Positions 16,403-50,185 of a stretch of DNA of 64,000 nt are shown here, piece after piece. The notes below the pieces were generated by a model that made no database searches, was not told the origin of the DNA, and saw only the letters and a list, made by a program, of their open reading frames with translations. Origin of the DNA: Lysobacter auxotrophicus (GTDB lineage: Bacteria; Pseudomonadota; Gammaproteobacteria; Xanthomonadales; Xanthomonadaceae); the NCBI RefSeq assembly GCF_027924565.1, contig NZ_AP027041.1, forward strand, positions 1,302,001 to 1,366,000, read 5' to 3'. Positions within the stretch are counted from its first letter, which is position 1. Every line of letters begins with the position of its first letter. The position numbers and the translations under genes were made by a program.

Positions 16403-18751
16403 CTACGGTTTACCCGGCACCAGCCTCATCGTGTAACGCGTCTGCCCCGGCAGGAACGGCGTCGCACGTCCGTGCACCCAGTCGTCGTGCCCCGCGCCCC
16501 AGAACGGCGACATCGGATGGCCGCTCTGTCCGCCTGGCATGTGGATGATTCCATCGGCCTCGTGCCCCGGCGACACCACCATGCGCTCGGACGCGCCGAA
16601 ATCCGGTCCCTGCACGCGCGGCATGCCGCTGTCGCCGGGCAGCTCGTCGGCGGGCATGCACAGTTGCGGCTTCAGGAAGCCCGGCAGCGCACGCGACAGC
16701 GGATGGCAGATGCGCGCGGTATTGCGCTCGCCCCACGTGCGTTGCGCGATGGGCCCGTCCTTCGCCAACTCGTCGCGCACTTCGCGCGCGGCGTCCTCGA
16801 ACAGCGCGTCCCACGTCGCGAAGCGGCGCGGCAGCAGGTTCGCCGGACGCTGTGTCACCAGCGGCCACGCGACGCCCTCGAAATGCGAGAGGTTCGGCAT
16901 CTCGAACGCCTCGCCCATCGCGGCGTGCGCCGGTGCGGTCAGGCCATCCAGCAAACGATCGTGCACCGCCAGTCGCCACGCGCGCACGATGCGATAGCTC
17001 GCCGAATCCGTACTCGCGCGACCCTGCCACGTCGATGCGGCCGCCGCGAGTTCGTGCAGCGCCGACGTTTTCTGCGCGCCGTCGCGCTCGCGCAGCAAGG
17101 TCCACCAGCGCTGCAGGAACAACGCGCGATCGTCGAGCTGGATCGCGAGCAGGTCGCGTTCCGCGAAACGGTCCTTCGCGAAGAGGTCGTCGCGGATCTG
17201 CCGCGCGCGCGCGCCGTTGGCGTAGCCGCCGTCGCCCACGCGCGCCAGCAACGCGCCATCGACCACGCGCGAATTCGCCGTCCACAGGCGCTGCACCGTG
17301 CCGATCGGCAGCATCGTGCCGTGCGCGGTGGTGATCGGCCACGGCGCGCAGGCCTCGGGCTCGACGACCTGCGTCGCGTCGCAACCGGCGCCGCGCTGCG
17401 GCATCGGGCCGAGCAGGCGCCAGGTGATGCGGCCCTGCGAATCGCCGATCGCGAGGTTCTGCGCCGGGATCGCGGTGCGATCGGCCATCGCGAGCGCGTC
17501 GTCGAGCGAGCGCGCGTGCAGGAATTCGGCCAGACCGAGGTTCATCGAGCCGGGCTGGTGCGCGATCCAGCGAAGCGCCAGGCCGCTGCCGTCGCGTTCG
17601 CGGTGCAGGATCGGGCCCCACGCCGTTTCATCGACGGGGAATTGGACGTCGTCGCTTCCGGCCACGCGGATGATCTCGACGTGGCGCGTCGCGCTGTCGC
17701 AGGTCGACTCGCTGCAATCGGCAACGCGTTGCCAGTCGAGCCAGTCGCCGTAGCTGTTGGTGAAGCCCCATGCGACGTGGCCGTTGCTGCCGACCACCAG
17801 CGCGGGCAGGCCGGGCAGGGTGAAACCGTTGGCGTCGACGCGACCGCCTTGCGCGCGCGCATCGGGATAACGCAACCGCGCCCGGAACCAGATGTTCGGC
17901 GCGCGCAGGCCCAGGTGCATGTCGTCGGCGACGATCGCGCGGCCGTCCGCGGTGAGCTGGCCCGACACCGCGAAGTTGTTGCTGCCGACTTCCGGGCGCT
18001 CCGGCACGTCGGCGGGGTTCGCGTTCTCCTGCATCGGCAGGCTGCGAAGATCGACCGTCGCCGCGTCGGGCAATGTCGCGTCCCCGCGCGGGCGACCTGC
18101 GACCGGCGCATCCCAGCTTGAGCCGTCGTGCGACAGCAAGGCGAACAGCGCGGCGGGCAGATGCGGGCGCAGGCGCCACATCGCCAGTTCGCGCTCGTTG
18201 CGCGCATCCTGCAGGTCGAAGTACATCGCGTAGCCGGTGAGCGCCGAGTCGGCGAGCGTCCACGGTTCCGGCTCCGCGCGCAGCAGCAGGTACGGCCACG
18301 GACGCACCTTCAGTGCGGCGCGCCCGGCGTTCACGCCGTCCACGTACGCCTGCGCCATCGCGCGCTTGTCGCCGAGGATCGCGTCCATGTGCTGCGTCAC
18401 GCGTGCGCGCATGCGGTGCACGCGATGTCGCTTGTCGACGTCCACCGCGACCGGCCCGAACAGCGCGGCGAGTTCGCCCGCGGCCGTGCGCCGCAGCAGG
18501 TCCATCTCGAAGTAGCGCTCCTGCGCGTGCACGTAGCCGAGCGCGCGCATGGCGTCGTTCTCGTTGGCGGCGTCGACCGTCACCACGCCGTTGCCGTCGC
18601 GCTGGATCGTCACGGCTGCCGACAGGCCGGGCAGCGCGAGTTCGCCGTCCAGTCGCGGCAGGCTGCCGCGCATCAGCCACCAGCCGACGAGCACCGCCAC
18701 CAGCAGAACCACCACCAGCGCGACGAGCACGCGCGCGATCCACTTCCTCAT
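16403..18751 (-). CDS. Penicillin acylase-family N-terminal nucleophile amidohydrolase
   Basis: 782 aa. An uncleaved or cleaved N-terminal hydrophobic helix (about 4-30) directs export, and the family matures autocatalytically into alpha and beta chains. The beta-chain nucleophile is Ser257 in EVGSNNFAVSG; the downstream asparagine motif and FTNSYGDWLDWQRV loop also fit. Members hydrolyse amide bonds of beta-lactams, acyl-homoserine lactones or other acyl amides; substrate cannot be told from sequence. The start at 18751 (MRKWIARVLVALVVV) was preferred to a long arginine-rich upstream extension. It is a single gene, convergent with dapE and divergent from the asnB leader. Confidence 0.9.
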   Translation of the reverse strand: MRKWIARVLVALVVVLLVAVLVGWWLMRGSLPRLDGELALPGLSAAVTIQRDGNGVVTVDAANENDAMRALGYVHAQERYFEMDLLRRTAAGELAALFGPVAVDVDKRHRVHRMRARVTQHMDAILGDKRAMAQAYVDGVNAGRAALKVRPWPYLLLRAEPEPWTLADSALTGYAMYFDLQDARNERELAMWRLRPHLPAALFALLSHDGSSWDAPVAGRPRGDATLPDAATVDLRSLPMQENANPADVPERPEVGSNNFAVSGQLTADGRAIVADDMHLGLRAPNIWFRARLRYPDARAQGGRVDANGFTLPGLPALVVGSNGHVAWGFTNSYGDWLDWQRVADCSESTCDSATRHVEIIRVAGSDDVQFPVDETAWGPILHRERDGSGLALRWIAHQPGSMNLGLAEFLHARSLDDALAMADRTAIPAQNLAIGDSQGRITWRLLGPMPQRGAGCDATQVVEPEACAPWPITTAHGTMLPIGTVQRLWTANSRVVDGALLARVGDGGYANGARARQIRDDLFAKDRFAERDLLAIQLDDRALFLQRWWTLLRERDGAQKTSALHELAAAASTWQGRASTDSASYRIVRAWRLAVHDRLLDGLTAPAHAAMGEAFEMPNLSHFEGVAWPLVTQRPANLLPRRFATWDALFEDAAREVRDELAKDGPIAQRTWGERNTARICHPLSRALPGFLKPQLCMPADELPGDSGMPRVQGPDFGASERMVVSPGHEADGIIHMPGGQSGHPMSPFWGAGHDDWVHGRATPFLPGQTRYTMRLVPGKP

Positions 18752-18858
18752 GGGCCTGTCGCCTGTGTGTTTCCCCGCGCCGAGCTTATCCGATGAACGG
18801 CGGGCCCGGCGTGCGCCTGCCCCTTGCAAGCGGCGCCGCGGGCCGGCAGGATCGACCC

Positions 18859-18978
18859 ATGTCTTCCGTCCAGGCCACTGCCTACGCCGCCCATGCCGCC
18901 TCGCGCGGTGGCGCGCCCGTGCAGGGCCTGAACAACAACAACCGCAATAACGCCAGCCTCCCGCGGGCCGGTGATTAG
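18859..18978 (+). CDS. Candidate Asn-rich leader peptide of asnB
   Basis: 39-codon open frame preceded by AGG about 8 bases upstream of its ATG. Residues 25-31 read NNNNRNN, encoded by four AAC in a row, CGC, AAT, AAC: six asparagine codons among seven. The stop (TAG, 18976-18978) lies 28 bases before an intrinsic terminator that stands directly ahead of asparagine synthetase. This is the layout of amino-acid attenuators such as the his, leu and phe leaders, with the control codons matching the product of the downstream gene. I infer a regulatory rather than structural role. It is too short for ordinary gene finders and is unconfirmed. Confidence 0.8.
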   Translation: MSSVQATAYAAHAASRGGAPVQGLNNNNRNNASLPRAGD

Positions 18979-19040
18979 CGCGTTGTAACCGCACTAAGCA
19001 CCCACGAAGCCCGCGCCGGAAAGCGCGGGCTTTTTCGTTT
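18915..19040 (+). promoter_or_regulatory. Transcription attenuator of asnB (segments 1-4)
   Basis: Four mutually exclusive segments can be read. Segment 1 is GCCCGTG (18915-18921), just before the Asn codons. Segment 2 is CGCGGGC (18962-18968), just after them. Segment 3 is GCCCGCG (19009-19015). Segment 4 is CGCGGGC (19024-19030). 1 pairs with 2 (7 bp, one G-U), 2 pairs perfectly with 3 (7 bp), and 3 pairs with 4 inside the terminator. A ribosome stalled at the Asn codons would cover segment 1 and free 2 to pair with 3, preventing termination; one reaching the stop codon would cover 2 and allow the terminator. Confidence 0.75.
19007..19040 (+). terminator. Attenuator terminator ahead of asnB
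   Basis: AAGCCCGCGC and GCGCGGGCTT form a 10-bp perfect stem around a 6-base loop, followed by TTTTTCGTTT. It ends 44 bases before the asnB ATG, so it must be read through for asnB expression from any promoter upstream of it. Confidence 0.92.
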
Positions 19041-19083
19041 GTCCGCCCCTGAAGAAAAGCCTCTAGCCCACGGAGTCATCGTT

Positions 19084-20772
19084 ATGTGTTCGATCCTCGG
19101 AATATTCGGCCTCCAACCCGGCGACGATGTGCAGGCCCTGCGCCGGCACGCGCTGGAACTCTCCCAACGCCAGCGCCATCGCGGCCCCGACTGGAGCGGC
19201 GTGCACCTGGACGACGGTGCGATCCTCGTGCACGAGCGCCTCGCCATCGTGGACCCCGCCGGCGGCTCGCAGCCGTTGCACTCGGCCGACGGCGACCTCG
19301 CGCTCGCGGTGAACGGCGAGATCTACAACCATCGCGAACTGGAACAGTCGCTGGCCCAGGATTACGCGTTCCAGACCGGCTCGGATTGCGAGGTCATCAA
19401 CGCGCTGTATCGGCAGCGCGAGGACATCGGACAGTGGCTCAACACGCTCAACGGGATCTTCGCCTTCGCCTTGTGGGATCGCGCGCGGCAACGGTTCGTC
19501 ATCGCGCGCGATCCGATCGGCGTGTGCCCGCTGTACTGGGGGCACGATCGCGACGGACGCCTGTGCGTCGCCTCCGAAATGAAGGCGCTGGCCGACACCT
19601 GCGCGGACGTGGCGCAGTTCCCGCCGGGCCATTACTACGACAGCGACGTCGACGAACTCGTGCGCTACTACGAGCGTCCGTGGCGCGAGCATGCCGCCAC
19701 GGACGGCGTGGAGGTTTCCCGGCAGGAGCTGCGCGAGGCGTTCGAACGCGCCGTGCATCGCCAGCTGATGAGCGACGTGCCGTACGGGGTGCTGCTGTCG
19801 GGCGGGCTGGATTCCTCGCTGGTCGCCGCCGTGGCCGCGCGATTCGCGCGCAAACGCATCGAGGACAACGACACGACCGAGGCGTGGTGGCCGCGCCTGC
19901 ATTCCTTCGCCATCGGGCTGGAAGGCTCGCCCGATCTCGCCGCCGCACAGGTCGCGGCGAAAGCCCTCGGCACGGTGCATCACGGGTTCACCTACACGTT
20001 CGAGGAAGGCCTGGACGCGTTGCCGGAAGTGATCCGGCACATCGAAACCTTCGACGTGACCACGATCCGCGCATCGACGCCGATGTTCCTGCTCGCGCGG
20101 CGCATCAAGGCGATGGGCGTGAAGATGGCGCTGTCGGGCGAGGGCAGCGACGAGGTGTTCGGCGGCTACCTGTACTTCCACAAGGCGCCCGATGCGCGCG
20201 AGTTCCATGCCGAAACCGTGCGCAAGCTCGACGCGCTCCACAACTACGATTGCCTGCGCGCGAACAAGTCGATGATGGCGTGGGGCGTGGAGCCGCGCGT
20301 GCCGTTCCTCGATGTCGAATTCCTCGACGTGGCGATGCGCATGGACGCCGCGCACAAGATGGTGCGTCCGGGCCCGGGGGGGCGGCCGATCGAGAAGGCG
20401 ATCCTGCGCGAGGCGTTCGAGGGCTACCTGCCCGACGAGATCCTGTGGCGCCAGAAGGAGCAGTTCAGCGATGGCGTCGGCTACGGCTGGATCGATGGCC
20501 TCAAGGCGCACGCGCAGGCGCAGATCAGCGATCGTGTGTTCGCGGCCGCCGCGAGCCGTTTCCCCGTGAACCCGCCGCAGACGAAGGAAGCGTACCTGTA
20601 CCGGCACCTCTTCGAGCAGTTCTTCCCGGGCGTGGCCTGCGCGCAGACCGTGCCGGGCGGCAAGTCGATCGCGTGCTCGTCGCCGGCGGCGATCGCGTGG
20701 GATGCGGCCTTCGCGAAGATGGCCGACCCGTCGGGACGCGCCGTTGCAGGGGTGCACGAGGCGGCGCTCTGA
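19084..20772 (+). CDS. asnB: Asparagine synthetase B, glutamine-hydrolysing
   Basis: 562 aa. The N-terminal class II glutamine amidotransferase domain starts with the catalytic Cys2 (MCSILGIFG); the ATP-pyrophosphatase synthetase domain has the PP-loop LLSGGLDSSLVAA near 238-248. It converts aspartate, glutamine and ATP to asparagine, glutamate, AMP and PPi. The start at 19084 is fixed by the need for Cys at position 2 after Met removal. The gene stands alone on the plus strand behind the Asn-codon leader and terminator, so its expression is probably tied to the charging level of tRNA-Asn. Confidence 0.97.
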   Translation: MCSILGIFGLQPGDDVQALRRHALELSQRQRHRGPDWSGVHLDDGAILVHERLAIVDPAGGSQPLHSADGDLALAVNGEIYNHRELEQSLAQDYAFQTGSDCEVINALYRQREDIGQWLNTLNGIFAFALWDRARQRFVIARDPIGVCPLYWGHDRDGRLCVASEMKALADTCADVAQFPPGHYYDSDVDELVRYYERPWREHAATDGVEVSRQELREAFERAVHRQLMSDVPYGVLLSGGLDSSLVAAVAARFARKRIEDNDTTEAWWPRLHSFAIGLEGSPDLAAAQVAAKALGTVHHGFTYTFEEGLDALPEVIRHIETFDVTTIRASTPMFLLARRIKAMGVKMALSGEGSDEVFGGYLYFHKAPDAREFHAETVRKLDALHNYDCLRANKSMMAWGVEPRVPFLDVEFLDVAMRMDAAHKMVRPGPGGRPIEKAILREAFEGYLPDEILWRQKEQFSDGVGYGWIDGLKAHAQAQISDRVFAAAASRFPVNPPQTKEAYLYRHLFEQFFPGVACAQTVPGGKSIACSSPAAIAWDAAFAKMADPSGRAVAGVHEAAL

Positions 20773-25336: not shown

Positions 25337-25421
<85 letters not shown>

Positions 25422-50129: not shown

Positions 50130-50185
50130 CCAGGAAGCGGGGACGACCCCGCCGCTCCAATCGCAACCGGGGACGGCCCCATCCG
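50130..50185 (+). ncRNA. Guanidine-II riboswitch (mini-ykkC)
   Basis: Two small hairpins with the diagnostic ACGR loops: GCGGGG-ACGA-CCCCGC (50137-50152) and GGGG-ACGG-CCCC (50169-50180), separated by 16 bases. This is the full mini-ykkC pattern, in which guanidinium binds the two loops as they dock and exposes the ribosome site. GGAG (50189-50192) begins 10 bases before the ATG of a guanidinium exporter of the expected type. Confidence 0.93.

Follow-up and report, generated by a model that had tools for sequence, protein, structure and literature searches.

A candidate asparagine-codon transcription attenuator upstream of asnB in Lysobacter auxotrophicus and its relatives

The asnB locus and the supply of asparagine

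The 64,000-nucleotide stretch of Lysobacter auxotrophicus DNA that was analysed, referred to here as the window, carries an asnB gene that is preceded on the same strand by a short, asparagine-rich open reading frame and an intrinsic terminator. The features of this region are listed below in window coordinates.

18824..18829, + strand: predicted -35 box, TTGCAA
18847..18852, + strand: predicted -10 box, CAGGAT, after a 17-nt spacer
18859..18978, + strand: leader peptide ORF of 39 codons (ATG at 18859, stop codon at 18976-18978), peptide MSSVQATAYAAHAASRGGAPVQGLNNNNRNNASLPRAGD
18931..18951, + strand: putative control codons NNNNRNN (AAC AAC AAC AAC CGC AAT AAC)
18962..18969, + strand: segment 2, the putative antiterminator 5' arm (CGCGGGCC), within the ORF tail; pairs with segment 3
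19006..19016, + strand: segment 3, the putative antiterminator 3' arm and terminator 5' arm (GAAGCCCGCGC)
19023..19033, + strand: segment 4, the intrinsic terminator 3' arm
19031..19039, + strand: T-rich tail of the terminator
19084..20772, + strand: asnB, glutamine-hydrolysing asparagine synthetase B, the putatively regulated gene (NF006949, PF00733, PF13537)

A sequence-only reading of this DNA had reported a 39-codon leader frame with an NNNNRNN run ahead of asparagine synthetase, and this frame is present, as are the four short segments that it listed (GCCCGTG at 18915-18921, CGCGGGC at 18962-18968, GCCCGCG at 19009-19015 and CGCGGGC at 19024-19030). The same reading described a 10-bp intrinsic terminator with a T-tract. 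The terminator and its T-rich tail are there, but the stem, which spans 19006-19033 with a loop of 6, has 11 pairs (8 GC) rather than 10. It is the sole terminator found by a scan of positions 18750-19100, where shuffled sequences average 0.3. The fold of the whole leader has a z-score of -2.67 relative to shuffles, with 1 of 200 shuffles as good, which taken alone is weak evidence. The leader peptide has no match in Pfam or NCBIfam. A divergent gene of the penicillin amidase family (16403-18751) lies upstream of the leader, a tRNA-Leu(CAG) gene (25337-25421) lies further downstream, and at 50135-50181 Rfam places an ordinary Guanidine-II riboswitch directly 5' of a gene for a small multidrug resistance protein.

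The AsnB protein scores 853 bits against NF006949 (asparagine synthase B), for which the cut-off is 499. The same genome encodes a full asparaginyl-tRNA synthetase (AsnRS; 625 bits, cut-off 342.6). No match to AsnA was found in it, and only 1 of the 20 genomes searched, this one included, has AsnA. Likewise, no match to GatB was found in the genome, which argues against a transamidation route to Asn-tRNA; therefore, tRNA-Asn should be charged with free asparagine. A further gene of this genome, L208 (G000:C1:2479000-2481800; 647 aa), scores 467 bits against TIGR01536 (cut-off 267.1). Among families, it scores best against the XrtA/PEP-CTERM amidotransferase TIGR03108, yet it stays below the cut-off there. 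By these scores, L208 appears to be a second, divergent asparagine-synthase-like gene that lies between the TIGR03108-type and asparagine synthase models. Since L208 passes the asparagine synthase cut-off, the idea that AsnB is the sole source of asparagine is weakened, and AsnB is likely the main source. Feedback through the charging of tRNA-Asn would be economical whether AsnB is the sole source or not.

Distribution and conservation of the leader

We compared the regions upstream of asnB, as the sequence-only reading had proposed, among 80 loci kept from 589 that encode a relative in genomes of named species, together with unnamed relatives of the window's genome. Dropping four repeats (L084, L088, L090 and L096) left a close set of 60 loci, among them that of the window, in which AsnB identity is 68% or more. 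At 56 of these 60 loci, an Asn-rich ORF ends in a stop codon 19-36 nt upstream of a terminator, where the combination with the best score was taken and 2 or more Asn among the final 25 codons were required; each of the 56 leaders has 3 or more Asn among its final 26 codons. Leader and terminator are missing from four loci: L013, L024 and L043, whose records carry the labels Holophagales, Rhodococcus and Deltaproteobacteria, respectively, and L099, from the window's family. The AsnB of L024, whose record is that of Rhodococcus sp. RD6.2, falls within the Rhodanobacteraceae group in an AsnB tree, as might result from transfer or contamination.

Among 11 congeners, Asn is found in 11/11 at 5 of the 6 Asn positions of the run and in 10/11 at the sixth. 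AAC and AAT replace one another at 3 of the 6 positions, and the residues 5' of the run are variable; the Asn codons are thus conserved as codons, by way of synonymous changes. The run reads NNNNRNN in the window's genus, NNANRNNLRANNR in Xanthomonas, NNNRANNNAN in Rhodanobacter and NNNANNN in Dyella. Between genera, the Asn run and the tail that encodes the antiterminator are the parts chiefly retained, while the N-termini differ and the ORF ranges from 22 to 43 codons. Conservation of the Asn codons across relatives, which had been named beforehand as a test of the attenuator, is seen in both Lysobacteraceae and Rhodanobacteraceae.

The Asn codons of the leaders also differ from those of the gene in their third base. 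AAU makes up 155 of the 352 Asn codons (44%) in the 56 leaders and 65 of the 475 (14%) in asnB, and its share is higher in the leader in 53 of 56 genomes, a raw count over genomes that are related to one another. Other C- or U-ending codons end in U at 17% in leaders and 16% in asnB in the same 56 genomes. Since these other pyrimidine-ending codons of the leader match those of asnB, the shift toward AAU, about threefold relative to asnB, is specific to the control codons. It could reflect slower decoding, avoidance of perfect AAC repeats or a need for an unstructured run.

To survey the order, a covariance model built from the 56 leaders was run on 200 genomes with strict filters, under which weak matches are lost; the survey is not fully independent of the training set, with which G000, G016, G017, G018 and G029 overlap by handle and others perhaps by species. 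Of the 200 genomes, 64 reach a model score of 62 bits or more, and when AsnB was sought in 200 genomes drawn in like manner, the same 64 gave an AsnB match of at least 929 bits (at least 75% identity). In all 64, the model match lies on the same strand as asnB and 22-167 nt upstream of it (median 48.5), and no other site listed in the survey exceeds 46 bits. In the window's own genome, the asnB site scores 116.7 bits and the next site 30.2. AsnB is matched at E 1e-150 in 127 genomes, and the remaining 63, with identities of at most 71%, include none with a strong model match. G108 and G084 belong to leader-bearing families, yet have a divergent asnB and no strong match. Because strong matches occur in three families of the order, the asnB attenuator appears to be old. 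A class-wide asnB survey, in which 4 of 229 genomes reached E 1e-150 or better, including the window's own and two of its family, is little informative.

As a positive control, leaders rich in Leu, Val and Ile were also picked up by the covariance model in front of ilvC (L125 and L127) and of an ilvD-type gene (L130). The leaders at L125-L127, L129 and L130 carry LVVLIT-like runs (around 1150-1350) and have leaderless-looking starts after TTGACA. The ilvC identity of L125 and L127 is given by NCBIfam, and the leaders of L126 and L129 are near-identical to them; the ilvD-type gene of L130 is cut by the end of its stretch and hence scores below the ilvD cut-off. Of 16 lower-scoring survey matches that were inspected, 5 are ilv-type leaders and the other 11 look like the tails of longer ORFs that have terminators, with no second Asn-type leader among these 16.

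To gauge how often such an arrangement arises by chance, we scanned for frames whose final 22 codons include 3 or more Asn and whose stop codon is closely followed by a terminator. The 64-kb window holds one other match (3 Asn). Both strands of 454,554 bases of the collected loci, from which the asnB-upstream regions of L004-L083 were excluded, hold 27 matches, 20 of which are copies of the asnB leader and 7 of which are unrelated (3-5 Asn). A scan of 102 outside loci, which include 2 core members and 4 repeats under another id, was stricter than the close-set criterion and missed the known core leader L047, so its count of at least two further candidates is a lower bound. These are L155 (G099), from another family of the order, where the leader MFAIYNTINTTNNRLLRSAGSF is accompanied by a GCCCGC/GCGGGC terminator, and L073, from a Rubrivirga MAG, with an Asn-rich leader and terminator before asnB. 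In the AsnB tree, made by a quick method with a midpoint root and leaving 34 of its 103 inner branches open, a single supported group of 60 rows (95*) contains the 56 core leaders; L073 and the gene of L155 (L201) sit elsewhere on long branches, and the leader label needs 6 changes. The simplest reading of this tree would be one main origin with a few losses, the two outliers representing perhaps separate origins or transfers.

Pairing of the leader segments

The pairings that had been proposed between segments 2 and 3 (antiterminator) and segments 3 and 4 (terminator) are both backed by compensatory changes across the 56 leaders, and the 2:3 pairing is kept in Lysobacteraceae and Rhodanobacteraceae alike. 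For 2:3, 89.0% of cells are paired in the 56 sequences, compared to 28-46% for slid versions of the helix, and the covariation score of 0.180 exceeds all 500 shuffles (0.082, sd 0.010). The most variable 2:3 pair is G-C in 13 sequences, C-G in 12, U-A in 12 and unpaired in 17. For 3:4, 93.9% of cells are paired, with a covariation score of 0.363 compared to 0.184 in shuffles. Two of the five covariation measures are indistinct from shuffles in both helices. Pairs changed on both sides number 3 for 2:3 (2.0 in shuffles, 34/500 as high) and 6 for 3:4 (5.3 in shuffles, 168/500 as high), and the counts of further pair types are 8 for 2:3 (7.8 in shuffles, 359/500 as high) and 16 for 3:4 (14.5 in shuffles, 80/500 as high). 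These two counts stay near the shuffle level because the helix core is nearly invariant. In L019 and L098, the 2:3 core GCGGG:CCCGC has become GCAGG:CCTGC, with changes on both sides, and the terminator tolerates the resulting U-G. Since this two-sided change leaves the terminator with a U-G, it suggests that the 2:3 pairing is maintained for its own sake. A leader's own segments 2 and 3 pair at a mean of -20.4 kcal/mol, compared to -17.5 kcal/mol for permuted partners, and 0 of 10,000 permutations are as good, although this count, like those for covariation, is not a probability, the sequences being related. The own pairing outdoes the average over swapped partners in only 41 of the 56 leaders, and it is weak in L021, L022 and L025.

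A pairing of segment 1 with segment 2, also put forward by the sequence-only reading, did not hold up. At fixed distances from the stop codon, all 7 pairs are present in only 5 of 11 congeners, and the modelled probability of the pairing has a median of 0.05 over the 56 leaders and is 0.00 in the window. We therefore rejected a 1:2 protector hairpin as a conserved feature, while noting that some single genomes can form one. Because a conserved 1:2 hairpin is unsupported, leader RNA that is not translated may lean toward read-through.

The positions of the promoter-like boxes point to where the transcript would begin. The -35 TTGC begins 35 or 36 nt 5' of the leader ATG in 48 of 55 loci, and the best-scoring -10-like box ends 5-8 nt 5' of the ATG in 55 of 55, with boxes and ATG picked by best score and L042, which lacks an ATG, excluded. 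The second base of the -10 box is A in 43 of the 55 loci, and the -10 score is equalled by 173 of 11,000 shuffled regions. A stricter consensus promoter scan found none before the leader or in the gap between terminator and asnB; before the leader, it is silent because the boxes depart from TTGACA and TATAAT, so its silence in the gap carries no weight either way. Transcription is predicted to start at about 18858-18860, which coincides with the leader ATG, and the leader would then be translated as a leaderless mRNA. Pairing to the anti-Shine-Dalgarno sequence is weaker before the leader (median -4.0 kcal/mol) than before asnB (-6.6 kcal/mol). An asnB transcription start after 19040, the case that had been named as standing against attenuation, would call for a separate promoter 3' of the terminator. 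Such a promoter is unsupported, since in relatives asnB can begin as little as 22 nt after the model match ends, which leaves no room for it. Palindromic repeats of the type GGCCATCCATGGCC, identified by eye, occur between the terminator and asnB in L023, L029, L030 and L036 and lengthen this gap; variants of them are present in further genomes, L022 and L086 among them.

The effect of a translating ribosome was considered using a simple footprint model. When the ribosome occupies the first Asn codon before segment 4 has been transcribed, the predicted probability of the 2:3 pairing is at least 0.49 in 56 of 56 leaders (median 0.70). With the ribosome at the stop codon, that of the 3:4 pairing has a median of 0.98. 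The claim that a ribosome at the stop codon covers segment 2 fits most leaders under this model, in that at least half of the segment would be covered in 47 of 56, but in the other 9 less than half of it would be.

Proposed mechanism, rival explanations and known systems

This region very probably functions as a ribosome-mediated transcription attenuator that couples asnB to the level of charged tRNA-Asn. Transcription would begin at or beside the leader ATG, and the ORF would be translated from a leaderless mRNA. When Asn-tRNA is plentiful, the ribosome would reach the stop codon and cover segment 2, allowing the 3:4 terminator to form. When Asn-tRNA is scarce, the ribosome would stall in the Asn run and leave segment 2 free to pair with segment 3, and this would block the terminator and permit transcription of asnB. 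From the arrangement of the parts we infer the stalling, the termination and the response to asparagine, and with them the regulation by tRNA-Asn charging. An Asn-rich leader ORF, an intrinsic terminator before the gene, an antiterminator that excludes it and, in the simple model, a suitable geometry are all found; a conserved 1:2 protector or pause hairpin is not, and we treat that hairpin as an optional part with no bearing on membership among attenuators. Given the shift of its Asn codons toward wobble-read AAU, the attenuator might read more than charging and respond also to how efficiently tRNA-Asn decodes AAU (for example to its queuosine modification), and its leaderless start would free translation of the leader from Shine-Dalgarno initiation, although we consider this broader version unlikely. 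If it were true, asnB would be tuned by the supply of asparagine together with the state of tRNA or ribosomes.

Other explanations of the same anatomy were weighed against attenuation. The ORF might encode a conserved small protein with a function of its own, the terminator ending that gene and asnB being transcribed from its own promoter. The ORF tail is indeed conserved among members of the window's genus, and terminated small-ORF transcripts can be genes themselves. However, what survives between genera is mostly the Asn run and the tail, in frames of variable length with differing N-termini, the peptide resembles no Pfam or NCBIfam family, and the gap to asnB shrinks to 22 nt, so that we regard this explanation as very improbable. 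That asnB is controlled by a T-box-like tRNA-binding or ligand-binding riboswitch, with the ORF incidental, has a precedent in the tRNA-Asn T-boxes of Firmicutes. The search of Rfam that the sequence-only reading had suggested gave no family at gathering score in the leader region, T-box included, and the nearest families are those of leader peptides: Thr_leader (RF00506; 26.4 of 55 bits, E 0.0074) and Leu_leader (RF00512; 24.1 of 50 bits, E 0.0096) are the best sub-threshold matches, and Trp_leader (RF00513) reaches 18.6 of 41 bits. The conservation of the Asn codons as codons also speaks against a riboswitch, and its probability appears to us close to negligible. It is also conceivable that, besides attenuation, the terminated short leaderless mRNA acts in trans as an sRNA or peptide, as is reported for rnTrpL/peTrpL of Sinorhizobium meliloti. 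The layout predicted here matches that of S. meliloti trpL, whose RNA begins with the ATG of its leader ORF (PMC7298713). This additional role has no known target and would involve a peptide whose N-terminus is poorly conserved between genera, and we think it distinctly improbable.

Attenuation governed by asparagine codons thus remains our preferred explanation, and the leader appears to be a classical ribosome-mediated attenuator whose amino-acid specificity is new, none with this specificity having been found in the literature searched. The sequence-only reading knew of no described attenuator of an asparagine synthetase gene; neither Rfam nor the open-access full-text literature that was searched yielded one, and a report in a subscription journal is possible. 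Asparagine would be added to the amino acids that are sensed by leader-peptide attenuation, and the supply of asparagine would have a possible means of control in many environmental, plant-associated and opportunistic bacteria, including Lysobacter, Xanthomonas, Rhodanobacter and their relatives. With its apparently leaderless start, the leader would furthermore lend itself to the study of how attenuation works in the absence of Shine-Dalgarno initiation and of what wobble codons do within a control region.

Leader-peptide transcription attenuators are classical for the his, trp, phe, leu, ilv and thr operons. The asnB leader resembles them in having a short ORF rich in the amino acid product of the pathway, an antiterminator and terminator that share a strand, and a biosynthetic gene downstream; it differs in that the amino acid is asparagine and the gene asnB, in having no conserved 1:2 hairpin, and in the coincidence of the leader start with the predicted start of transcription. 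In Firmicutes, tRNA-Asn T-box leaders couple asparagine genes to the charging of tRNA-Asn. The asnB leader would achieve the same coupling, but T-boxes bind the tRNA directly and the asnB leader has no T-box match in Rfam. The S. meliloti trpL attenuator, as described in PMC7298713, likewise produces an RNA that starts at the ATG of its leader ORF, whereas for the asnB leader such a start is predicted; trpL differs further in its Trp codons and in belonging to an alphaproteobacterium. Nearest at hand are the ilvC and ilvD leaders of the order (L125-L127, L129 and L130), in which the parts follow one another as in the asnB leader, the arms of terminator and antiterminator are similar and, by eye, a TTGACA box lies similarly close to the leader ATG, but which carry Leu, Val and Ile control codons where the asnB leader carries Asn.
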